IMG/VR virus record: IMGVR_UViG_3300032093_000512
Span: 1 to 32,868 of that record
Length of the DNA stretch: 32,868 nucleotides
Strand: one strand, 5' to 3'
Origin: a virus
The notes under the pieces were generated by a model. That model did no database searches. It was not told where the DNA came from and saw only the letters and a list, made by a program, of their open reading frames with translations. Positions 6,452 through 32,494 of this stretch are shown piece by piece (within the stretch, counting starts at the first letter, position 1; every line of letters begins with the position of its first letter). The position numbers and the translations under genes were made by a program.

Positions 6452-7982
6452 TCAAATGAAGGACTGGCGCTGGCGCGTCAGCAACCTTTACACCATCGCG
6501 GACGAAGAAGGGCGGGTCATTCCGTTCCGGCCGAATGGCGAACAGATCAAGCTCATGGATACGATGCACAACCGCAACGTCATCCTGAAAGCCCGCCAGC
6601 TTGGTTTCTCTACGCTGATCCAGATCATGGGCCTCGATACCTGCTTGTTCCATGCCAACACCAACATGGGCGTTATTGCTCAGGACCTGCCTACCGCCGG
6701 CCGCATTTTCAGGGAAAAGATCAAGGACGTTTACGAACGACTACCGGACTCGATCCGCGCGCTGCGTGCCGCGACACAGAACTCCGAGCGCGCCATGGAG
6801 TTCTCGAACAAGTCGCGGATCTGGGTTGATACGTCGATGCGTTCGGGAACGTTGCAGTTCCTGCACGTCTCCGAGCTGGGCAAGATTGCAGCAAAATATC
6901 CAGGCAAAGCGCGAGAGATCAAAACAGGCGCGTTTCCTACGGTTCACTCAGGCCAACACATTTTCGTTGAAAGCACAGCCGAGGGGCAGGGCGGCTTGTT
7001 TCACGAGATGGTCATGACGGCCAGAGAGCGTGAAGATCAGGGCCTAGAGCTGACACCGCTTGAGTTCAAATTGCACTTCGTTCCGTGGTGGAATGACAAT
7101 CGCTACCGGATCAAGACTGACCGCACGATCCCGGCGAAGCATCAGGCATATTTTGCAGAACTCAAGCGCCAGCACGGCATTGAACTCGATATTGAGCAGC
7201 AGCGCTGGTACAGCCAACAAGCCCTGCAACAGGGCGAGGACATGCGCCGGGAGTTCCCGAGCTACCTTGAGGAAGCGTTCGAAGCCCCGATTGAGGGCGC
7301 TTACTACACCGAGGAACTGCGCCGCGCCCGTGAGCAATTGAGGATCGGGGATTACCCGTTCGATCCGAAGCTAGGTGCGGTTTACACGTTCTGGGATTTG
7401 GGCCGGTCGGACCTCATGACGATCTGGCTGGCGCAAAGGGTAGGCGCGTCACGCTGGCGGTTCTTTGACTATATCGAGGGGCAGGACGAGAGCTTCCCGC
7501 ACTATGCCCGTGTGCTGAGAGAGAAACAGAACGAACACGGCGGATGGGTATACGGCGGACACTTCCTCCCGCACGACGGCGCAAGGACGGACATCAGCGC
7601 CGCCGCGAGCCGAAAGACCACGCTGGAAAACCTGCACATCTTCCCGGTGCATATCGTGAAGCGCACCAAGGACCTGAGCGGCCCGGCGCTGACTAGTTCG
7701 ATCAACTTGGTGAAGGCGTTCATGGACCTTTGCGCGTTTGACCGCGTGGGCTGCGCTGAAGGGCTGAAGCATCTCGCCAACTACCGGCGCGAATGGGACG
7801 ACAAGCTGGCGATCTGGAAGACCAAGCCGTTCCACAATCAGGCGTCTGACGGTTCGGACGGATACAGGACAGCGGCAGAAGCGGATTACCAGGGGCTCCT
7901 GGACCGCGAAATGTACGGCGATGACTACGACGCGGCGGCCGAAAACCGGCTGCGCCATGCGGATGAACACACGGGGTATTGA
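6438..7982 (+). CDS. terL: terminase large subunit (packaging ATPase-nuclease)
   Basis: A 514-residue DNA-packaging motor that pumps DNA into the procapsid and cuts it. The N-terminal ATPase has a Walker A-like KARQLGFST (residues 51-59), a Walker B region FLHVSELG (141-148) with E146 as the likely catalytic acid, and a coupling motif VESTAEG (177-183). The C-terminal RNase H-like nuclease contributes D320 in FWDLGRSD and acids D471 and D474 in SDGSDGYR. Length and motif order are normal for the family. It starts inside the small-subunit gene and ends at the TGATG junction with the portal. Confidence 0.96.
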   Translation: MATADQMKDWRWRVSNLYTIADEEGRVIPFRPNGEQIKLMDTMHNRNVILKARQLGFSTLIQIMGLDTCLFHANTNMGVIAQDLPTAGRIFREKIKDVYERLPDSIRALRAATQNSERAMEFSNKSRIWVDTSMRSGTLQFLHVSELGKIAAKYPGKAREIKTGAFPTVHSGQHIFVESTAEGQGGLFHEMVMTAREREDQGLELTPLEFKLHFVPWWNDNRYRIKTDRTIPAKHQAYFAELKRQHGIELDIEQQRWYSQQALQQGEDMRREFPSYLEEAFEAPIEGAYYTEELRRAREQLRIGDYPFDPKLGAVYTFWDLGRSDLMTIWLAQRVGASRWRFFDYIEGQDESFPHYARVLREKQNEHGGWVYGGHFLPHDGARTDISAAASRKTTLENLHIFPVHIVKRTKDLSGPALTSSINLVKAFMDLCAFDRVGCAEGLKHLANYRREWDDKLAIWKTKPFHNQASDGSDGYRTAAEADYQGLLDREMYGDDYDAAAENRLRHADEHTGY

Positions 7983-9943
7983 TGCTGAACCCAACTGACA
8001 ACGGATACGACGAGGAACTGGACGGCGCTGCCGAACGGGCTCCTGTGTCCGTTGCGCAGAACTTGGCCGACATCTTAGCGTTTCGGGGCAACCTTATCGA
8101 GCTGATGCCGGAAGACGAACGCCGCCGGCTTGGCGCGGAAGTGGTCCGCGAGTACCGGATTGACGAGGCGAGCCGCAAGCCATGGCTGGACGGCGTAGAG
8201 CGCGCAATCAAGCTGGCGAAGCAGGACCCCGAGGCGAAGAACTACCCGTTCCTGAAAGCCTCCAACATCAAGTATCCCGTGCTGACCGCTGCGGCGATCC
8301 AGTTCGGGAGCCGTGCCTACGGCGCTGTGACGCGCTCTGACCAGCCCACGGTCACGAAAGTGCTAGGCGATGATCCGAACGGCCTCAAGGCGGCCCGTGC
8401 GTCTCGCCTGACGGCGTGGAACAACTACCAGCTCATGTACGCCATGGACGAATGGGACAGGGGCACAGACGAGCTTCTGCACACCATCCCGGTCACGGGC
8501 GCATCGTTCCGCAAGGTGTACTGGGACGCCTCGCTTGGCCGGATCGTGGCAGAGCATACGAGGGCACAGCATGTCTGCGTCCACAATGACAGCCCGAGTT
8601 TCGACCGCGCGCCGCGCCAGACGCAACCAATAGAGTATTACCCCAGCGAAATCCGCAGGCTGATCAAGCTCGGCAAGTGGGCGAACCACAAGTACGACGC
8701 AGACGACACGGAAGACAGCCAGAAAGCGGTTCGGTATCTTGAGCAGCTCCGGTTCATCGACCTTGACGGCGATGGTCTTGACGAGCCGTACATCGTGACG
8801 GTTGAGGAATGCTACGAGACGCCTGTGCGGCTTGATCCGGCATTCTCCAAGCGGTCCATGATGGTGACAGGAATGGGCGACGTGGAGACGATCCTGCGGG
8901 AAAGCCCGTGGATTGATTACAACTTCCTGCCCGACATGGACGGATCGGTGTACGGCATGGGGTTCGGCCAGCTCCTTGAAAGCCTTGGCGCCGCGATCAA
9001 CACGATGCTGAACCAGATCGTGGACGCGGGCACACGCCAGAACACGGGCGGCGGGTTCATTGCAGAATCCCTGCGTCTCAAAGGTGCGCGCGGCGGCGTG
9101 ATGCAGATCAACCCCGGCGAATACAAGTTCGTGAAGGCAGACGGCCAAGCCCTGACGAACAGCATTCATACGCTGACATTCCCCGGCCCGAGCCCGGTGC
9201 AGTTCCAGCTTGTCGAGTTCCTGCTGGGCGCGGCGCAGGACATCACGGCGGTCAAGGACGTGCTGACGGGTGATGCGCCAAGCGGCCAGGCCATGGGATC
9301 CACGATGGCGCTGATTGAGCAGGGCTTGCAGGTCTTCTCAACAATCTACACGCGCGTTTATCGCTCGATGCGGCGCGAGCTTCGCCTGATGCACCGTTTG
9401 AATGGCCTGTATCTTCCGGCCGAGACGTACATGAAGTTCCAGGACAGCCCTGATCTGCAACAGATGGTTCAGCAGGGCTATGACATCCGGCAAGAGTTCG
9501 ACCTTGAGGGCATGGATGTTGCCCCGAGCGCGGACCCCAAGTCCGTGACGGACATGCAGCGCATGATGCGGGCAGAATATGTCGGGCAGTTCAAGGGAAT
9601 GCCCGGCATGAACACGGCGGAGATTATCAAGTTCCAGCTTGAGGCCGCGCATATTCCGAAGCCGGAGCGGTTCTTCGCGCAAGGGCCTGACCCGATGGCG
9701 GGCCTCGCGCAGGAAAAAGCCAAGCATGAAGTGGCCGGCGAGAAGGCCAAGGTCATGAAGACGATGGCCGAGGCCGAGAAGATCAACCAGGAGGCAGAGA
9801 ATGCAGCGCTTGAGCGCGGAGCAACAATCGGAATGGCTGGAGGAATGGGCGGCATGGAAGGCCAGCCCGATGACACGGGCGTTCTACCAGTGCCTCAGCC
9901 AAATGGCGCAGGCCCAGCGGGACAAATGGGCGGCCAGTTTTGA
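7982..9943 (+). CDS. portal protein, P22-like
   Basis: The portal (653 residues) forms the dodecameric vertex through which DNA enters and leaves the capsid. Length and sequence style match the P22-type podovirus portal: an N-terminal helical part with KPWLDGVERAIKLAKQD, the YPFLKASNIKYPVLTAAAIQF stretch typical of the family, a central segment with DGSVYGMGFGQLLESLGAAI and the NQIVDAGTRQNTGG loop, and a long C-terminal helix (EKAKHEVAGEKAKVMKTMAE) resembling the barrel, then a Gly/Met-rich tail. I prefer the ATG at 7982, sharing a base with the terminase stop (TGATG), over a TTG one codon earlier. The last 143 bases also encode another protein in a different frame. Confidence 0.93.
   Translation: MLNPTDNGYDEELDGAAERAPVSVAQNLADILAFRGNLIELMPEDERRRLGAEVVREYRIDEASRKPWLDGVERAIKLAKQDPEAKNYPFLKASNIKYPVLTAAAIQFGSRAYGAVTRSDQPTVTKVLGDDPNGLKAARASRLTAWNNYQLMYAMDEWDRGTDELLHTIPVTGASFRKVYWDASLGRIVAEHTRAQHVCVHNDSPSFDRAPRQTQPIEYYPSEIRRLIKLGKWANHKYDADDTEDSQKAVRYLEQLRFIDLDGDGLDEPYIVTVEECYETPVRLDPAFSKRSMMVTGMGDVETILRESPWIDYNFLPDMDGSVYGMGFGQLLESLGAAINTMLNQIVDAGTRQNTGGGFIAESLRLKGARGGVMQINPGEYKFVKADGQALTNSIHTLTFPGPSPVQFQLVEFLLGAAQDITAVKDVLTGDAPSGQAMGSTMALIEQGLQVFSTIYTRVYRSMRRELRLMHRLNGLYLPAETYMKFQDSPDLQQMVQQGYDIRQEFDLEGMDVAPSADPKSVTDMQRMMRAEYVGQFKGMPGMNTAEIIKFQLEAAHIPKPERFFAQGPDPMAGLAQEKAKHEVAGEKAKVMKTMAEAEKINQEAENAALERGATIGMAGGMGGMEGQPDDTGVLPVPQPNGAGPAGQMGGQF
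9789..9794 (+). promoter_or_regulatory. Shine-Dalgarno AGGAGG inside the portal gene
   Basis: AGGAGG is 6 bases before the ATG at 9801, inside the 3' end of the portal coding sequence. It decides the start of the overlapping 90-residue gene and is the best ribosome site in this part of the window. Confidence 0.75.
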
Positions 9944-25135: not shown

Positions 25136-26965
25136 ATGGCAAGCGGGATTCCGTTTGGTGATCAGGTTGAGAACTCGTCTGGCACGCCTGTGTCCGGCGC
25201 CAAGATCTATTTCAAGATCAAGGGCACCAACACAAACGCCACGACGTACACGGACAGCGCGCTGACCGTTCCGGCGGCCAACCCCGTTGTGGCAGACGCG
25301 GCTGGCTGGTTCAATACGTACCTCAGCCCAACGGTCAACTATGACGTTGAGATCAAGTCTGCCAACGATGCGATCACGTATCGCAGCTTTTCCGAAAGCC
25401 CCTCCGCAACCGGCTCCCAGCCCGTAGACGCTACCCTGACAGCGCTTGCCGGGCTTGGCCTTGAAAACCGGAAGATAACCCGAGGCACGGGCGTTGATAC
25501 TGGCGAGCTTGTGTTCAGCGGCGCATTGTTTGGCGTTCAAAACGTGCTGGACTATGGCTCAAACGCTACAGCGTTCACATCAGCGGCGGCGGCTGGGGAT
25601 GTTGTCATCCCGCCCGGCTCCTACACGCTAAGTGCAAAGGTCACGGGCGACTTTTACCCCTCTCCGTTTGCAACGTTCACGACTCCCGCCAACTTTGCCG
25701 CGTCTGCGGTGCGCGGGTTCCTGACGGACAAGGATGATGACCCTTCGATCTTCCGCGTTCCGCAACGCTTGCTGATTTCCAAGGCGGCGCAGGATTTTGC
25801 GGGCAGTTCCCAAGCGACTGATGGCGATACATGGCTTCAGGATGCTGGCGCCGGGTTCTACCATGAACGCGCGTCACATATCGTGGCTGTGTCGGATCGC
25901 GGGGCAATCGGTGTGCTGGGCGCGTCCCGAGCATCGGATCGCTATACGATCAACGGCGCGGTGGTCTGGCAGGCTTCCACGGCCTATTCTCTGAACGCCA
26001 TCGTTGGATATGCCGGAAGGCTCTACACCGTCACGGTGGCGGGCACGACCAGCACGGTTGCCCCGACGCATACCAGCGGCAGCGTTGTGGATGGAACGGC
26101 CACGCTGACGTGGCTTGACTACACCTACCTCGTTCCAATCGGCGCCTCGTTCGTTGGCTTCTCGGACGTGGTAGATGGGACAGGCACGTGGGCCGGATAC
26201 TTTGAAGGCATTCGCGGGCCAGATGGCAGCACGGTTTATGCGGCTGAAATCGCGGTCAAGAACCGGGGCAGCACGGATGTGGTCAACACTCCGTATTCGG
26301 TGTTTCCGGGCGGCTCGACCATTGGCTTCTATTTCGCGGGCGGGGGAGATTCGGCGCTCGGTGCTCCGACACACCCCAGCACTTGCGCCATCCTGATTGC
26401 TCGCAACGCAGAGACTTTCAACAAGGGTATCGTGATCGGCGCCACAGCCATTGAAGGCACCGATGGCGTCACGGGCACCGGCGTTGCCATCAGCATGGCC
26501 AAGGGCCACGTTTTTGAGTGGCAGGCGTCAGACGGACAGGCCGCTACGATCTTCTCGTCAGTCAGCGCGACGGCGAACCGTGTGGGGCTTGAGTTCACAA
26601 ACGATGCGATCCGCCACACGTTCCAGGGCGAAATCGGTATGCAGGTTGAAGGCGCAGCGGGCACGCTGGCCAATTACCTGCGTGTCATTGCGAACACGAC
26701 CGGCCAACCCCTGCGGATCGAGACGCAAGGCTCTGATACAAACATCACGGTCCAGCTTGCTCCGAAGGGAACGGGCCTGATTGATATTCGGGGCAGCTCT
26801 GGAAACAGGGTCATCGGTGTCGGTGTGAACACGCTGGGCTTTTACAACACCACGCCGGTTGCCCGGCCAACCATCACCGGATCGCGCGGCGGCAATGCGG
26901 CGCTTGCAAGCCTGCTGGCCGAACTGACGACAATGGGCCTGATCCTGAACGGAACAACGGCATGA
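25136..26965 (+). CDS. tail fibre or tailspike
   Basis: 609 residues. The N-terminal ~80 residues (FGDQVENSSGTPVSGAKIYF, ANPVVADAAGWFNTYLS) form a small beta sandwich that attaches fibres to the tail. Next comes LDYGSNATAFTSAAAAGDVV, ending IPPGSYTLSAKVTG, the entry segment of pectate-lyase-like beta helices, but no long helix of regular coils is obvious. The C-terminus (PTITGSRGGNAALASLLAEL) resembles the conserved end of many phage fibres. Residues in between are glycine- and threonine-rich strands. It should contact the host surface, and a depolymerase activity is possible but not shown. Confidence 0.82.
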   Translation: MASGIPFGDQVENSSGTPVSGAKIYFKIKGTNTNATTYTDSALTVPAANPVVADAAGWFNTYLSPTVNYDVEIKSANDAITYRSFSESPSATGSQPVDATLTALAGLGLENRKITRGTGVDTGELVFSGALFGVQNVLDYGSNATAFTSAAAAGDVVIPPGSYTLSAKVTGDFYPSPFATFTTPANFAASAVRGFLTDKDDDPSIFRVPQRLLISKAAQDFAGSSQATDGDTWLQDAGAGFYHERASHIVAVSDRGAIGVLGASRASDRYTINGAVVWQASTAYSLNAIVGYAGRLYTVTVAGTTSTVAPTHTSGSVVDGTATLTWLDYTYLVPIGASFVGFSDVVDGTGTWAGYFEGIRGPDGSTVYAAEIAVKNRGSTDVVNTPYSVFPGGSTIGFYFAGGGDSALGAPTHPSTCAILIARNAETFNKGIVIGATAIEGTDGVTGTGVAISMAKGHVFEWQASDGQAATIFSSVSATANRVGLEFTNDAIRHTFQGEIGMQVEGAAGTLANYLRVIANTTGQPLRIETQGSDTNITVQLAPKGTGLIDIRGSSGNRVIGVGVNTLGFYNTTPVARPTITGSRGGNAALASLLAELTTMGLILNGTTA

Positions 26966-27159
26966 TGACGAAGCGCGCCGGAGAGTTCACCTGCAAGTGC
27001 GACGTGTGCGGAGCGTTTGAGACGTTCCACGCGCACACCCATTCGCAGGCTTGGGAAGTCATCAAGCGCCGGGCTTGGGCCGTGCGAAAGAATGCGTTCC
27101 CGATCATCCATGTCTGTCCCGAATGCCCTGTGGAGGTTTCCCGTGCGAGAGCAAATTGA
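26962..27159 (+). CDS. small zinc-finger protein
   Basis: A protein of 65 residues. CKCDVCGAFETFHAH and VCPECPVEV provide four or more cysteines (CxCxxC and CxxC), so a zinc ribbon is likely; HAHTH adds histidines between them. Start at 26962 overlaps the fibre stop; an ATG one codon later is equally possible. The following gene begins inside its last codons. Function unknown, perhaps a fibre-assembly or host-takeover factor. Confidence 0.6.
   Translation: MMTKRAGEFTCKCDVCGAFETFHAHTHSQAWEVIKRRAWAVRKNAFPIIHVCPECPVEVSRARAN
27132..27136 (+). promoter_or_regulatory. Shine-Dalgarno GGAGG for a GTG start
   Basis: GGAGG precedes the GTG at 27143 by 6 bases. It fixes the start of the 178-residue gene; an in-frame ATG at 27017 lies deep inside the zinc-finger gene and the intervening sequence reads as its shadow. 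Confidence 0.7.
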
Positions 27160-27679
27160 CGCCATCCTTCGCCCGTTCAAGCGGGGAGGATATGACACAG
27201 GCGCCGAGTTCAACGGCAAGTTCTGGGAAGTGTGGATCGGAAACCATGCCGGGGGCCGGGAAAACGGCGTCTCACTGGCGCAGGACTTGGCCGAGAAGGT
27301 GCGAGGCATGACCGTGCAGGCTGTTCAACCCGTCCCGCCCCAGCCGCTCACCGCGTCTCTGGCAGCCAAGCCAACCCCTCCGGCAACGGACTATGACGCC
27401 ATCATTGCCGGGCTCAAGGCCCAGCTTGCCGAAGCGCTGGCGAAGGCGCCGGAGGTGATAGAAATCCCCGCTTTCCTCAAACCGCCCGAGGCTGAAATGA
27501 ACTTTCACGATGACTTCATTGCCCGCGAGGCGCTGGACGGCGAGGAACGCGCTGACACCGTTGCCCGCCTGCAACTCCAATTTGAGAAGCTGACAAACTA
27601 TTCTTACGTCCGCATTCTGGAAGACGCAGAGCAGACGCGGCTCAGTGAGCTGACAACCAACCTTCGCCTCGGTGGTTAA
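27143..27679 (+). CDS. hypothetical helical protein
   Basis: A 178-residue protein starting at GTG 27143 after GGAGG. The first ~55 residues look globular (YDTGAEFNGKFWEVWIGNHA), then a Pro-rich linker (PVPPQPLTA), a helix with coiled-coil character (YDAIIAGLKAQLAEALAKAP) and a charged helical C-terminal part (DGEERADTVARLQLQFEKLT). It overlaps the zinc-finger gene by 17 bases. Not recognised; position suggests a tail-associated or lysis-related accessory protein. Confidence 0.65.
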   Translation: MREQIDAILRPFKRGGYDTGAEFNGKFWEVWIGNHAGGRENGVSLAQDLAEKVRGMTVQAVQPVPPQPLTASLAAKPTPPATDYDAIIAGLKAQLAEALAKAPEVIEIPAFLKPPEAEMNFHDDFIAREALDGEERADTVARLQLQFEKLTNYSYVRILEDAEQTRLSELTTNLRLGG

Positions 27680-27681
27680 GC

Positions 27682-28062
27682 ATGGACGGGCTGGGCAAGG
27701 ACTTGTCAGGCGTCCTGATGGAGCTGATCGCGGGGCAGTCGCGGATAGAAGCCAAGGTGGACGGCCTCGTCAGTCACGAGCGGATGAATGAGGTGGTCAA
27801 CGTGAGCCGGCAAGAGTGGCGCAGCGACATTAAGTCCGCAATGAGCGACCTCGCTGAAAACCAGCGCACCGAACGCCGCGCTGAAATTGCGGAGATGGAA
27901 AAGCGCATCACTGCCGAGATCGACAAGAAACACGCTGACCGCGAGAAGCGGGACACTGAAATCGAGAACCGTGTGCGGATCACCTTCATCAGTGCGGGCA
28001 CAGCGGCGCTTGTGACCATCGGTTACACAATGCTGCGCGCGATGGGCTGGGTAGGCGGCTAA
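27682..28062 (+). CDS. coiled-coil protein with C-terminal TM, XhlA-like
   Basis: The protein has 126 residues. A long charged helix (about residues 15-98; EIAEMEKRITAEIDKKHADR) is followed by one membrane segment near the C-terminus (FISAGTAALVTIGYTMLRAM). This topology matches XhlA-type phage membrane proteins, which assist holins in Gram-positive phages, and various virion membrane proteins. It begins the membrane/lysis block, 2 bases after the preceding stop. A lysis role is an inference. Confidence 0.65.
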   Translation: MDGLGKDLSGVLMELIAGQSRIEAKVDGLVSHERMNEVVNVSRQEWRSDIKSAMSDLAENQRTERRAEIAEMEKRITAEIDKKHADREKRDTEIENRVRITFISAGTAALVTIGYTMLRAMGWVGG

Positions 28063-28072
28063 GGGGCTGACA

Positions 28073-29110
28073 ATGAACACATTCTGGAAATACTGCCGCG
28101 AGCAATTGCCCGCGCAGGTCGCTACCTTTTGGATGGTCGCCGCGTTCTACCTGCTGGGCTTCGGGCTTGTCCTGGCGTTCCTCCAGATTGACGCTGAGTT
28201 CTCCCGGCCCCTCGCGGGCGGGGTAGTGCCAGAGCATGTCACGCAGCACCTTGCGTGGGCTGTGCGGGCGTTCAGCGTCATCGTCGGCATGGCAGCCATG
28301 TACTGCCACGTTCACGCCATGCCCCGGTTCCGCAATATGCTGCTTTGGATGGGCGGGATTGCGGCTGTGCTGCTGTTCCTCCATGCGCTGGGGATTTCCG
28401 CCAAGATCATGGAAGGCCAGTATGGCCGCGCCGCTGCTATCGGGCAGATTGAGACGGCAACGACGGACACGAGCGCGGCGCAAATCGCCATCCTGCAAAG
28501 CCAAATCGACGGTATCAGGGCAGACCGTGACGGGCAAGTCACTCGCCTGCAAGACAGCATTAACGGCATTGTCAATGACGGCCTGAACAATGACGAACTG
28601 GCCGACGCTTACCGCGCTGACCAGATCGCAGCCGAGAACGAAGCCCGCGAGCGTATCCGCCCGCTGGAAGACCAGATCACGGCATTGACGACCGCTGCCG
28701 GCGCAACGGTAGTTGAGGCGACCGAGGCGAAAACCAAGGTGGACAGCTTCAACCCGCTGTTCACGTTCATGGCCCGCGTCATGAGCTGGACGTGGGACCC
28801 GGCAAAGCAGCCGACCGAGACGCTTCAGTTCGGGCTCGGGTTTGCGTTCCTGACGCTGTTCTTCGGGTTTGGTGAAATCCTGATGATGGCGTGTTTCACC
28901 ATCGCTTACGGGATGCAGATCATCGTGGCGACGCAGAAGGCCAAGCCGCAGCCGGTTGAGGCCATCCCCGAGCCCGTCAACGACGAGACCGAAGACACGA
29001 AGCTGACCCGCTCCGAAATCGGCCGCAAGGGCGCGCAGGCGGCAAACATGAACCGCAAGATGCGCGGCATGGATAACCGCATTGCAGTCGGTGAGGGGGC
29101 TGCCGCATGA
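28073..29110 (+). CDS. four-TM membrane protein with internal coiled coil, unknown
   Basis: A 345-residue protein. Predicted membrane helices: FWMVAAFYLLGFGLVLAFL (about 19-37), AFSVIVGMAAMYCHV (66-80), MLLWMGGIAAVLLFLHALGI (89-108) and FGLGFAFLTLFFGFGEILMM (257-276, continuing to ~288). Between helices 3 and 4 lies a ~145-residue charged helical region (QIAILQSQIDGIRADRDGQV), probably coiled coil and periplasmic if the N-terminus is inside. The C-terminal ~55 residues are soluble and charged. It overlaps the Hsp70-like start (ATGA), so the two are probably co-translated. I recognise no family. Confidence 0.72.
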   Translation: MNTFWKYCREQLPAQVATFWMVAAFYLLGFGLVLAFLQIDAEFSRPLAGGVVPEHVTQHLAWAVRAFSVIVGMAAMYCHVHAMPRFRNMLLWMGGIAAVLLFLHALGISAKIMEGQYGRAAAIGQIETATTDTSAAQIAILQSQIDGIRADRDGQVTRLQDSINGIVNDGLNNDELADAYRADQIAAENEARERIRPLEDQITALTTAAGATVVEATEAKTKVDSFNPLFTFMARVMSWTWDPAKQPTETLQFGLGFAFLTLFFGFGEILMMACFTIAYGMQIIVATQKAKPQPVEAIPEPVNDETEDTKLTRSEIGRKGAQAANMNRKMRGMDNRIAVGEGAAA

Positions 29111-30579
29111 TGATCGGTATCGACTTCGGCACGACGAACAGCGGCGTGGCGGTCTGGACCCCGCGCGGGACAACCATGATCGAAATCGCAGGCCAGCAAG
29201 ACACGCTGCCTTCGGTCGTCGCGCAAACGGATAAGGGGTTCGTCACAGGCCGCTATGCCCTGACGCAGACGGATGAAAACCCTGACTTCACGTTCCGCAA
29301 TATCAAGCGATACCTAGGCCGCGAGTTTGACGAACAGGAGCACTCGCACTTCCAGCTTGCGGAAGGCCCTGACGGCAAGGTCTGGTGGCGCGGGCGGGAT
29401 GGGTTGATCTCCGGCCCTACGCTGGTGGCGGAAATCCTGAAATCGCTGCTCATTGCCGCTGAAAGCCATCTGAAGGTCAAGCCAAGCGGCGCGGTGATTG
29501 CGGTGCCAGTTGACTGCACGCAGGCCCAGAAAGACGCTGTGCGGGAAGCTGCGCGCCTCGTGGGCCTTGAGCGTGTCGAACTGTTTGAAGAGCCCTACGC
29601 GGCGGCTGTGGCTTACGGCGTGACCGCGCTGGACGACAAGTTTACCCGCGTGGTGATTTACGACCTTGGCGGCGGCACGTTCGACGTGACCGTCCTGCAC
29701 ATGAAGAACGGCGTCACAAGCCCGGCTGGCATGAACGGCATCGGGTTCCTTGGCGGCGCGGACTTCGATGCGCGGATCGTGGAAGACTGCGCGGACAAGT
29801 TCTTTGCCGAGCATGGCATTGACCTTCGCGGCAAGCCGCATTGCATGGTCCGGCTGGTCAAGGAAGCCGAGGAAGCCAAGCGGCGCCTTTCGGACGTGAC
29901 CGAAACAATCATTCACCTGCCGCAACTCGTGCTGACCGATGACAAGGGCCTGCTCACGCTGAAACAAAAGTTAAAGCGCTCCGAGCTGGAGGCCATGACG
30001 AAAGACCTCGTTGCCAGCACCGTTACGTGCCTCACCGAAGCGCTGAAGCAGGCGGACCTTTCCAAGAAGGAAATCGAACACGTCCTTCTCGTCGGTGGCC
30101 AGTCAAGAATGCCGCTCATTCATTCCGTGCTGTCGCGGTTCTTCGGGCCGGACAAGCTGGTGACGGGACCGAGGCCGGAACATGCCGTTGCGCTTGGCGC
30201 TGCAATCCAGGCGGCAGAGATCGAAGGCCGCAAGGCCAAGTCCGTGCTGGAACGCATTGCGCCCGCATCGATCGGCATCACCCGGTTCGGCGGCGAGTTC
30301 GTGCCGGTCATCAAGCGCGGGGAGAAATACCCGGTTCGCAAGACCGCTGAGCTTTGCACCGTCAAGGACGGGCAGGCCATCCTTGGCCTTGAAATCACGC
30401 AGGGCGAGGCTGTGGCGGCAGAGGATAACGAGCGGCTGGTGTTCTACCAGATCGGCGCGGAAGCCCTGCCAGCGGGCGAACTGACCGTCACTGTGACGCT
30501 GGACGTGGACGCAGGCGGGCAACTGTCCGTGATGGCGGGCGATGAAGTTATCATTGGGCTGAAGGACAAAGCAGCATGA
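29107..30579 (+). CDS. Hsp70/DnaK-like chaperone lacking the lid domain
   Basis: A 490-residue Hsp70 relative; DnaK is about 638. The ATPase domain has phosphate-1 GIDFGTTNSG (4-13), IKRYLGREF, EEPYAAAVAYG, phosphate-2 DLGGGTFD (186-193) and the adenosine loop LLVGGQSRMP (327-336). Residues from about 390 match a shortened substrate-binding beta domain (LGLEITQGE, VTLDVDAGGQLSV), which ends the protein; the alpha lid and C-terminal tail are absent. The interdomain linker, VLLLDV in DnaK, is replaced by SVLERIAPASIGI (379-391). It would bind ATP and probably peptide, but allostery may differ. No DnaJ or GrpE is visible. It is coupled to the membrane protein upstream and the lysozyme downstream by ATGA. 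Confidence 0.93.
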   Translation: MMIGIDFGTTNSGVAVWTPRGTTMIEIAGQQDTLPSVVAQTDKGFVTGRYALTQTDENPDFTFRNIKRYLGREFDEQEHSHFQLAEGPDGKVWWRGRDGLISGPTLVAEILKSLLIAAESHLKVKPSGAVIAVPVDCTQAQKDAVREAARLVGLERVELFEEPYAAAVAYGVTALDDKFTRVVIYDLGGGTFDVTVLHMKNGVTSPAGMNGIGFLGGADFDARIVEDCADKFFAEHGIDLRGKPHCMVRLVKEAEEAKRRLSDVTETIIHLPQLVLTDDKGLLTLKQKLKRSELEAMTKDLVASTVTCLTEALKQADLSKKEIEHVLLVGGQSRMPLIHSVLSRFFGPDKLVTGPRPEHAVALGAAIQAAEIEGRKAKSVLERIAPASIGITRFGGEFVPVIKRGEKYPVRKTAELCTVKDGQAILGLEITQGEAVAAEDNERLVFYQIGAEALPAGELTVTVTLDVDAGGQLSVMAGDEVIIGLKDKAA

Positions 30580-31685
30580 CCTATACCGTAAGCACTAGGG
30601 CCGTTGACCTTGTCACGGAGTTCGAAGGCTCAAAACCCCGCCTCGTTGCAGAGCTGTGCGAGGGCGGCAAGTACGAGCTGGGATGGGGATCTACCTACCA
30701 TCTGGACGGGCGGCCCGTAGAGGCGGGCGAGACGTGTACGCTGGAATATGCCAAGCAGCTTAGGGCGCACGCGCTGGGGGTCGAACTGGCGCCTGTGTTG
30801 CGTGCCGTAAGAGTACCGCTGCGCCAGCATGAAGTCGATGCGCTGGCCTCGTTTGCTTACAATGCAGGGGGCTCGGCTGCGGCTGGGTCCAGCGTCGTCA
30901 GGGAACTGAACGCGGGCCGGTTTGAAAACGCCGCCGCTGCGTTCGCCATGTGGACCGGCGCGACAAGCTCGGGGCCTTCGCCGCGCGAGATCAGGAACGG
31001 TTATCGGATCGAAGCGCCCTATCAGCGGATCGGCAACACGAACCGCTGGATTGGCCCCGATGGCCAGCCCTGCCAGTATTTCCGCAGGCTGACGGGATTG
31101 CTGCGCCGTGGCCACGCACAGGGCTGCCTCCTGCTTGGCTATGACCACAGCGAGGCCACCAAGCCCGGCGCGCTATCGATCCGCACACGGCTGGAATGGA
31201 ACGCCGCCAAGAACCGCTGGCAGGACGTGATTATTGAGCAGACCCCGTTCACGTCTACGCTCGCCGTTGCCCGCAAGTATCCGCTGCTGCCCGCTATGCC
31301 ACCCATCCCGCAACAGCCTGACCCGCCGAAAGCCCCCGCGCCTGTTGTGGAAGTCAAAGCCGAACCCCTGCCGGAACTGAAACCCGCCGTTGACCCGTCG
31401 CTGCCGCCCAAGAAGATTGAAGATTCCCGCACTGGCAAGGCCGTTAACCGCGCATCCCGTGGACGCGAAACCGTCGCCATCAGCACCATCGGCACAGTCC
31501 TCGCGGGCCTTGCAACGCAAATCGAAATCATCGGGCGCAGCCTTGAGAACATTGGCACTGATACCATGATCCGTGTCGCGCTGTTCGGGTTCATCTGCCT
31601 TGCTGGCATGGGCGCTTACTGGTGGTGGAGCGGACGCAACGAAGCGTATCACCGCCGCCTTGAAACACAGGACCCGAAATACTGA
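30576..31685 (+). CDS. GH24-type endolysin with C-terminal membrane anchor
   Basis: A 369-residue muramidase-like lysis protein. The lysozyme domain spans about residues 1-192: FEGSKPRL with catalytic E17, GKYELGWGSTYH in place of the TIGYGHT loop, ALASFAYNAGG, SVVRELNAGRF and GLLRRGHAQGCLLLGYD, in the usual order. The canonical E-x8-D/C-x5-T becomes E17, C28, E34 with a two-residue insertion. A Pro-rich linker (about 237-280) leads to a C-terminal membrane helix (about 332-351, ALFGFICLAGMGAYWWW) followed by a basic tail. It starts in an ATGA overlap with the Hsp70 gene. N-terminal signal or SAR sequences are absent. Confidence 0.85.
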   Translation: MTYTVSTRAVDLVTEFEGSKPRLVAELCEGGKYELGWGSTYHLDGRPVEAGETCTLEYAKQLRAHALGVELAPVLRAVRVPLRQHEVDALASFAYNAGGSAAAGSSVVRELNAGRFENAAAAFAMWTGATSSGPSPREIRNGYRIEAPYQRIGNTNRWIGPDGQPCQYFRRLTGLLRRGHAQGCLLLGYDHSEATKPGALSIRTRLEWNAAKNRWQDVIIEQTPFTSTLAVARKYPLLPAMPPIPQQPDPPKAPAPVVEVKAEPLPELKPAVDPSLPPKKIEDSRTGKAVNRASRGRETVAISTIGTVLAGLATQIEIIGRSLENIGTDTMIRVALFGFICLAGMGAYWWWSGRNEAYHRRLETQDPKY

Positions 31686-31999
31686 TGGCACCGATAGGAT
31701 ATTCCATTTGGCTGTGGTTCCGCTCGAATCCAGCAGCGCAAGCCGTGGCGTTTGTCGTCGCGCTCTACATCGCGTTTCGCCTATGGCTCGCCCGCAAGAT
31801 ACGCCGCGAGCGCGAGGACGCTGCCGAGGAAGCCGTTGAACAAGTCACCGAACAGATACAGGAGAAGACCGATGAAGCTATCCAGCGTGTTGAGGACGAC
31901 CGTGCTGCTGTTGAGCGCCTCAACTCTGAGCAGTTGCGCAAGCTCGCCGAAGCCAGTCCGCACAACCGAGGCCGCTTGCACCGTCCTGAAACCGATTGA
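31685..31999 (+). CDS. i-spanin (Rz-like) inner-membrane subunit
   Basis: A protein of 104 residues. One N-terminal membrane helix (AAQAVAFVVALYIAFRLWLA, about residues 17-36) is followed by a long charged coiled coil (RREREDAAEEAVEQVTEQIQ, through residue ~90). Spanins of this type link inner and outer membranes and fuse them in the last stage of Gram-negative lysis. The gene for the lipoprotein partner lies in the overlapping frame, which strongly supports the call. ATG shares a base with the endolysin stop (TGATG). Confidence 0.82.
   Translation: MAPIGYSIWLWFRSNPAAQAVAFVVALYIAFRLWLARKIRREREDAAEEAVEQVTEQIQEKTDEAIQRVEDDRAAVERLNSEQLRKLAEASPHNRGRLHRPETD
31860..31865 (+). promoter_or_regulatory. 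Shine-Dalgarno AGGAGA for the nested o-spanin
   Basis: AGGAGA lies 6 bases before the ATG at 31872, inside the i-spanin gene, and decides the o-spanin start over upstream in-frame codons such as 31752. Confidence 0.7.
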
Positions 32000-32120
32000 G
32001 TATCACCTGTGCGAAGCGGGGGATCTGGATGACGCCACGAACAGTTGCGATACTGTAGCGACTGCCATGCGGATTTATTACCACAACCGCGACCTTGCCG
32101 CCCTGTGTGCCCCAAAATGA
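31872..32120 (+). CDS. o-spanin (Rz1-like) lipoprotein
   Basis: The protein has 82 residues. It starts MKLSSVLRTTVLLLSASTLS with the lipobox LSSC next, so signal peptidase II would cut before Cys22 and the mature protein would be lipid-anchored in the outer membrane. The mature part contains three further cysteines or more (ACTVLK, HLCEAG, NSCDTV). Proline-rich content typical of Rz1 is low. The gene overlaps the i-spanin in another frame by 128 bases and extends 121 bases beyond it, an overlapped rather than fully embedded pair. The stop overlaps the next start (ATGA). Confidence 0.85.
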   Translation: MKLSSVLRTTVLLLSASTLSSCASSPKPVRTTEAACTVLKPIEYHLCEAGDLDDATNSCDTVATAMRIYYHNRDLAALCAPK

Positions 32121-32494
32121 GCCGCGACCTAGCCGACGAAATCCTAGCCTCTGCCGGAGCGGAACACAGCGCCCGGCATGGGGAAGTGATTGACCATCCG
32201 CTGCGCTCCAAGTTCCTCGCCCGAACAGCCCCTAAGCCCCCCGAAGGCATAGAAGTGCCAACCCCCGTGGCATGGCTTGTCAGGGCCGGGCCTTACCTGT
32301 CCGTGCTGGCCGTCACTGTCGTTGCGCTCCTGATCTATGTCGGGGAGCGGCGACAGATGATCCTGGCAGACATTGGCCGCACGACCTGTTCGGCTGACAG
32401 CTCGCTGATGCTGGAGCAAGACCCCGGAAGCGACGTGCCAAGGCTAAACGACACGGTGCTGCTCAAGTGCGCGAAGGCTTACGAGCTGTTCTGA
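32117..32494 (+). CDS. single-TM membrane protein, unknown
   Basis: A 125-residue protein starting at the ATG that overlaps the o-spanin stop (ATGA); an ATG at 32045 in the same frame is inside that gene. The first ~55 residues are soluble and charged, followed by one membrane helix (YLSVLAVTVVALLIYVG, about 72-88) and a C-terminal part with two cysteines (GRTTCSADSSL, VLLKCAKAYELF). As the last gene before the terminator in the lysis block it could be a holin or antiholin, but I cannot show it. Confidence 0.65.
   Translation: MSRDLADEILASAGAEHSARHGEVIDHPLRSKFLARTAPKPPEGIEVPTPVAWLVRAGPYLSVLAVTVVALLIYVGERRQMILADIGRTTCSADSSLMLEQDPGSDVPRLNDTVLLKCAKAYELF

Follow-up and report, generated by a model that had tools for sequence, protein, structure and literature searches.

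A 32,868-base virus record from IMG/VR, analysed here at its full length and referred to below as the window, carries between the genes of a membrane protein and a cell-wall-cutting enzyme an ORF that reads as an Hsp70 without its lid. This locus raises the question of what such a chaperone does in a phage, with which partner it works, and whether it can still take part in the chaperone cycle of the host.

A true Hsp70 that lacks the alpha lid

The ORF at 29107-30579 encodes a true Hsp70, in which an intact ATPase domain is joined by an altered linker to a beta substrate domain and the alpha lid is missing (Table 1). A preliminary description, made from the letters of the DNA, had claimed just this layout and had proposed structure prediction, a search against Hsp70 families and a phylogeny as checks; the layout was borne out by Pfam, model and alignment. 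The protein matches Pfam HSP70 (PF00012) over residues 2-480 with an E value of 8.6e-110 (368 bits against a cut-off of 20.6), far beyond chance, and the same residues align with the PDB sequences of solved structures, DnaK and mitochondrial Hsp70. The match to NCBIfam DnaK (NF001413) has an E value of 2e-110, and its score of 370 bits is below the equivalog cut-off of 648, so the protein is not DnaK proper. The scores for TIGR02350 (366.6 bits, cut-off 822.55) and for the HscA equivalog (324.1 bits, cut-off 708.55) are also too low; in addition, no isc genes were found in the cassette, and the protein falls outside HscA in the tree. The motifs GIDFGTTNS, YDLGGGTFD, VGGQSRMP and GAAI are intact, and only about six residues follow the beta domain, indicating that the lid is absent.

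An AlphaFold2 model was built from seven family members (pLDDT 80, pTM 0.71). Its actin-like ATPase domain matches DnaK with Z 48-49 and an rmsd of 2.0-2.4 A over 378 residues, and eight beta strands are formed by residues 388-483. Since most structure-match rows span the ATPase domain only, the beta domain is assigned from sequence alignment and the predicted strands. An actin fold of the MreB/ParM type was rejected, because MreB matches with an E value of 1.1e-17 versus 8.6e-110 for HSP70, and because a beta substrate domain is present; the ParM-type or exopolyphosphatase-type fold named in the preliminary description as a contrary outcome thus fails.

Table 1. Features of the lysis cassette in the window (all on the + strand)
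Feature	Position	Strand	Description	Basis or remark
Protein B	27682..28062	+	126 aa; coiled coil and one C-terminal TM segment	Similar small proteins precede C in the cassettes read
Protein C	28073..29110	+	345 aa; predicted TM helices on either side of a coiled-coil segment, then the tail	Stop overlaps Hsp70 start by 4 bp
C-terminal tail of C	29006..29107	+	TRSEIGRKGAQAANMNRKMRGMDNRIAVGEGAAA	Common to other C proteins preceding lidless Hsp70
DNRIAV	29072..29089	+	Window form of the short tail motif [DE]xx[ILV][PAV][VI]	
Lidless Hsp70	29107..30579	+	490 aa	ATG at 29107, stop ends at 30579
Hsp70 domain layout			ATPase domain, about residues 1-376; altered linker, 377-387; beta substrate domain, 388-484; no lid	
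ELFEEPY	29578..29598	+	Replaces DnaK RIINEPT (R167..T173); catalytic E171 kept	
Linker KSVLERIAP	30238..30264	+	Replaces DnaK DVLLLDVTP	
Endolysin	30576..31685	+	GH24 phage lysozyme, Pro-rich linker, two C-terminal TM segments; SpmX-like layout	
Rz-like inner-membrane spanin	31685..31999	+		PHROG E 0.0021
Rz1-like lipoprotein	31872..32120	+	Lipobox LSSC; overlaps Rz in another frame	Sequence inspection
Small TM protein	32117..32494	+	Ends the cassette	Similar proteins in L002-L004

Scans of viral contigs gave relatives on L001, L002, L003, L004, L120, L121/L122, L124 and L150; L111 was reached via its endolysin, and many more via protein C. Clustering at 97% identity left 21 distinct relatives from about 30 IMG/VR contigs, and all are lidless, with lengths of 484-513 aa and about 0-6 residues past the beta domain. 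Truncation by sequencing error is ruled out by contig L001 from the same phage, which is identical at 100% over 13,762 bases, and by 20 further lidless relatives that end at about the same place. In a tree based on the ATPase domain only, all the sampled lidless phage members form one clade (97/97), wherein L124 branches first, and this clade is separate from DnaK, HscA, HscC and a group of short bacterial Hsp70s. The lidless group, which comes from uncultured phages, has one origin. A recent host DnaK was also considered as the source and rejected, since no bacterial relative exceeds about 39% identity and the clade is separate; the truncated host DnaK that the preliminary description had named as the outcome against it is thereby dismissed. 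The closest plasmid or chromid matches are alphaproteobacterial DnaKs with about 39% identity. Pairwise dN/dS values in the family range from 0.036 to 0.13, indicating strong purifying selection on the lidless Hsp70 and ruling out a pseudogene.

Contrary to what the preliminary description had supposed, Hsp70 itself is not scarce in phages. At least 569 stretches coding for Hsp70 came up in one scan of IMG/VR, and among the best 80 loci 75 are closed full-length DnaK-like genes. Full-length DnaK is therefore common in viral contigs, and only the lidless type is unusual among phage Hsp70s.

Residues of the 21 relatives were numbered by mapping to E. coli DnaK. All 21 keep D8, K70, P143, E171, D194, T199, D201, G228, E267, K270, G341, G342 and R345, and T11 (T, S or A) is the sole variable position among the checked residues of ATP binding and hydrolysis. 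The triad R167/N170/T173, used in J-protein docking and allostery, is altered in every relative and never complete; it reads E/E/Y in the window. In DnaK, R167 pairs with the aspartate of the J-domain HPD motif and with D393 and D481 (PMC7289447; PMC6843406). The GrpE contact V59 is likewise changed in 21 of 21. The linker is KSVLERIAPA in the window versus DVLLLDVTPL in DnaK, so that VLLLD has become SVLER; that of the other clades varies, and D393 is kept in most relatives outside the window's clade, suggesting that the allosteric machinery is not wholly lost. The substrate pocket of the beta domain is mostly still hydrophobic, and the sequence of this domain varies more quickly than that of the ATPase domain. 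A search of 20 contigs with the Hsp70 found one Hsp70 on each and no DnaJ or GrpE gene, the DnaJ and GrpE search being positive in 12 of 14 control genomes. Taken together, this viral Hsp70 line appears to have given up the co-chaperone cycle, while strong selection has preserved its motor. With both docking surfaces altered, the assays with host DnaJ and GrpE proposed in the preliminary description would be expected to give a negative result. As a minor point, DnaK R167 corresponds to E and D393 to R in the window protein, a possible reversed salt bridge that is absent in the relatives.

These residues bear on the idea of a decoy for the host DnaK system, which would capture DnaJ, GrpE or unfolded proteins and thereby weaken either the heat-shock response or a defence that guards chaperones, such as bNACHT25. 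A counter-defence role has been proposed for phage-encoded DnaK and DnaJ (PMC12619734), and bNACHT25 requires DnaJ-DnaK (PMC12169576). However, replacement of the J-protein site and the GrpE contacts in all 21 relatives is the opposite of what a decoy needs, and the coupling to C and the endolysin is left unexplained; we regard a decoy as very unlikely.

The lysis cassette and its membrane protein

All the loci that were read gene by gene show one order, namely B (if the contig extends that far), C, Hsp70, a GH24 endolysin with a C-terminal TM segment, and Rz/Rz1. In most loci the stop of C and the start of Hsp70 share 4 bp, and the Hsp70 and endolysin genes overlap in many, the endolysin start lying over the Hsp70 stop by 4 bp in the window. 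When loci were fetched by C alone, a lidless Hsp70 was the next gene in 28 of 31; one of the remaining three is cut by the contig end, and the other two (L229, L230) represent one phage without the Hsp70. Meanwhile, a homologue of C or of the cassette endolysin was found at none of 77 full-length viral DnaK loci. A chance neighbour is ruled out by these two counts. Pfam and PHROGs offered no named family for B or C.

The terminase of the window has a weak match in the phage of L002 and was undetected in those of L003 and L004, so the cassette travels as one block among different phages. A common chaperone for virion assembly, taken over from a host DnaK and by now in decay, is hard to reconcile with this distribution: the Hsp70 is always in the lysis cassette, and with carrier terminases unrelated or undetectable it does not follow virion genes. 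Although a DnaK/HscA-like ancestor, the alphaproteobacterial DnaKs among the best plasmid/chromid matches and the presence of DnaK in other phages would suit such an origin, decay is excluded by the strong purifying selection and the conserved catalysis, and we consider this explanation very unlikely. Of the clients suggested in the preliminary description, the neighbouring membrane protein is genuinely supported by the gene order and by the tail of C, whereas no evidence points to virion proteins.

Several minor observations concern the surroundings of the cassette. In L120 an HNH-endonuclease-like ORF of 240 aa (1296-2018) lies between C and the lidless Hsp70 and is perhaps a homing insertion. 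A tyrosine-integrase-like ORF, recognised by inspection near the L150 cassette (6963-8114, - strand), suggests a temperate phage. The window region 25136-26965 likely encodes a tail or decoration protein, with a weak CBM_5_12 match (E 7e-4) below the cut-off.

The cassette endolysin resembles SpmX and the phage-derived SpmX-type lysozymes of Alphaproteobacteria in combining GH24, a Pro-rich part and a C-terminal TM segment (NCBIfam SpmX, 4e-12), but its 46 bits against the 700 of the SpmX model are far under the cut-off. The Hsp70 might be a dedicated chaperone of this endolysin, of the spanins or of other phage proteins, keeping them soluble or inactive until lysis, and C would then be a neighbour and not a client. 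The endolysin gene is directly downstream and overlapping in many loci, every endolysin with at least 37% identity that was found in viral contigs is preceded by a lidless Hsp70, and the rate of change is higher in the beta domain than in the ATPase domain, as expected for a client-specific site. However, the phage of L229 and L230 has an SpmX-like endolysin of the same layout without the Hsp70, and the C protein of that phage has lost its tail. In addition, lidless Hsp70s release clients fast and make poor holdases; DnaK without its lid has on and off rates 10-100 times faster (PMC7083937). A dedicated chaperone of this kind is improbable in our estimate.

The C proteins are very divergent in their membrane part and similar in their tail, where a short hydrophobic strand comes after a basic, helix-prone segment around G-G/A. 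Hydropathy and charge suggest that C is an inner-membrane protein with a cytosolic tail. A model of C has low confidence (pTM 0.37) and shows a helical protein only. The short tail motif was picked after the tails had been viewed, with a chance rate of 3-20% per tail, and the tail of the L224/L215 type does not match the strict pattern. Tail HMMs were also built without a given clade and scored among 9,587 background tails. These held-out HMMs detect tails across clades with E values of 1e-7 to 0.03 (L002, 3e-4; L111/L120/L121, 0.002-0.03; L150/L204, 1e-6 to 2e-7; L224, 0.001). Against the same background, the tails of L003, L004 and L124 were not significant, and that of the window reached only 0.1-0.56; in a direct match, the window tail and the L002 tail gave 9.5e-6. 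In a search for prophage carriers, alignment of C to 398 Pseudomonadota genomes gave only three short matches (E 4.7e-4 to 7.1e-4), which were taken as chance.

Two natural contrasts bear on the link between tail and Hsp70. In L229 and L230, which lack the Hsp70, an SpmX-like endolysin is present and C is related to that of the other loci, but the C terminus of this C is different and the tail motif is absent. In the two close phages of L003 and L004, the N-terminal parts of C are unrelated, and homology sets in again at the final 45 codons of C and extends over Hsp70, endolysin and spanins. Together they indicate that the tail of C travels with the Hsp70. The L003 and L004 Hsp70s are near-identical beyond codon 60 and diverged in the first ~60 codons; this is a recombination joint beside the swapped membrane part of C. 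As a side observation, the region 5040-9220 of L229 (same phage as L230) holds C and the SpmX-like endolysin without Hsp70, with the differing C end, and a protein upstream resembles the product of 27017-27679 in the window.

The swapping could also be read in another way, namely that C and the Hsp70 together serve superinfection exclusion or act against injection and happen to be co-transcribed with the lysis genes; the variable part of C in the periplasm would block or sense a phage that comes in, with the Hsp70 to signal or reset it. A membrane part exchanged between L003 and L004, with the same tail, Hsp70 and endolysin on both contigs, would fit diversifying pressure, as would a membrane part that differs among the window, L004, L124 and the remaining loci; such a system could be of use to a lysogen, and the integrase gene seen by inspection in L150 would agree with this. 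However, the cassette position and the 4-bp overlaps mark late lysis genes, which is late for exclusion, and C matches no known exclusion family. The part between the membrane segments of C in L002 and L003 has PG_binding-like matches (E 4e-4 and 2e-4, below the cut-off), suggesting the cell wall and not a phage as its target. We think exclusion unlikely; together with chaperoning of the endolysin it is the chief rival of the reading favoured below.

A proposed working of the Hsp70 with protein C

We favour, with a probability of roughly 45%, a specialised Hsp70 that stands outside the DnaJ-GrpE cycle and serves as the fixed partner of C, whose tail would be a built-in ligand as in yeast Ssz1, probably to mature or time lysis. 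The pairing with C rests on genomics; we infer the role in lysis and the biochemistry, that is, tail binding, an ATPase that works free of a J-protein, and the membrane topology. C would sit in the inner membrane with its variable part in the periplasm and its C-terminal tail in the cytosol. The open, lidless beta domain could then hold the basic helix-forming stretch of the tail and its short hydrophobic strand (e.g. RIAV, RVPV, YIPV or LLVI), by analogy with Ssz1, in which the linker is detached and the beta domain holds the LP motif of the permanent partner Zuo1 as a pseudo-substrate (PMC7083937). The state of the C-Hsp70 complex would be set by the conserved motor, which would bind ATP and hydrolyse it slowly with no need of a J-protein.

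Because C, the Hsp70 and the membrane-tethered endolysin form one translationally coupled unit with the spanins, lysis control or maturation is the likeliest purpose: the membrane components of lysis would be kept competent but inactive, and the complex might help to decide the moment at which the endolysin acts. Phage MS2, which lyses a DnaJ mutant with delay (PMC12169576), shows that chaperones can act in lysis. Nevertheless, the position of the Hsp70 in the lysis cassette may reflect co-transcription only. A more daring version makes the Hsp70 a nucleotide-driven switch of the phage lysis clock, which grips a wall-sensing membrane protein by its cytosolic tail and, on letting it go, triggers the membrane-tethered endolysin. 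Release might follow a fall of ATP or of membrane energy, or a changed wall signal. We find this version doubtful; if true, it would be a chaperone-derived lysis regulator of a kind not described before.

Relation to known Hsp70s

Ssz1 of the yeast ribosome-associated complex resembles the phage protein in lacking the lid, keeping the beta domain and having an unusual linker (PMC7083937). It differs in being eukaryotic and ribosome-bound, in having a J-protein as its partner and in not hydrolysing ATP, whereas the phage Hsp70 keeps all the checked catalytic residues and neighbours a membrane protein. The likeness is one of working and implies no closer kinship than among Hsp70s generally. The nearest cellular relatives are bacterial DnaK and HscA, with 33-40% identity in the ATPase domain and a shared fold, catalytic residues and eight-stranded beta domain. 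In contrast to them, the phage Hsp70 has no lid, its J-protein and GrpE sites and its linker are altered, and its scores are far under the NCBIfam equivalog cut-offs.

Among viruses, the full-length DnaKs of large phages (Lak, other huge phages and moraphages, PMC12619734) are also phage-encoded Hsp70s; however, they have 621-656 aa and canonical RIINEPT and VLLLD, lie on another branch of the tree and are found without such a cassette. In the fold search, HSP70h of plant closteroviruses also appeared as a virus-specific homologue in a viral job, but it belongs to plant RNA viruses, is ~18-25% identical and, as far as the fold search goes, has a C-terminal part of another kind.

The Hsp70 superfamily is known, and lidless members are known from yeast and, judged by their sequence, from some bacteria. 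Our literature search, which was incomplete in coverage and reached few subscription journals, found no report of an Hsp70 family that lacks both lid and co-chaperones, is fixed in the lysis cassettes of phages and is linked to the tail of a membrane protein. Its place between a membrane protein and a cell-wall-cutting enzyme suggests that a general chaperone has been turned into the dedicated partner of a phage membrane protein. The family offers a natural experiment on what the core of ATPase and beta domain can do alone, and a bacterial-virus parallel to Ssz1. If its tie to C and the endolysin is functional, chaperone-type control of lysis would join holins, pinholins and antiholins.

Short bacterial Hsp70s of 485-527 aa (Selenomonadaceae, Bifidobacterium, Solobacterium) likewise end after the beta domain and are without the R167/T173 pair. 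They form a separate clade, however (100/100), so the lid was lost there independently. These short proteins were found in L008, L009, L010, L011 and L013, which are genomes of Firmicutes and Bifidobacterium.
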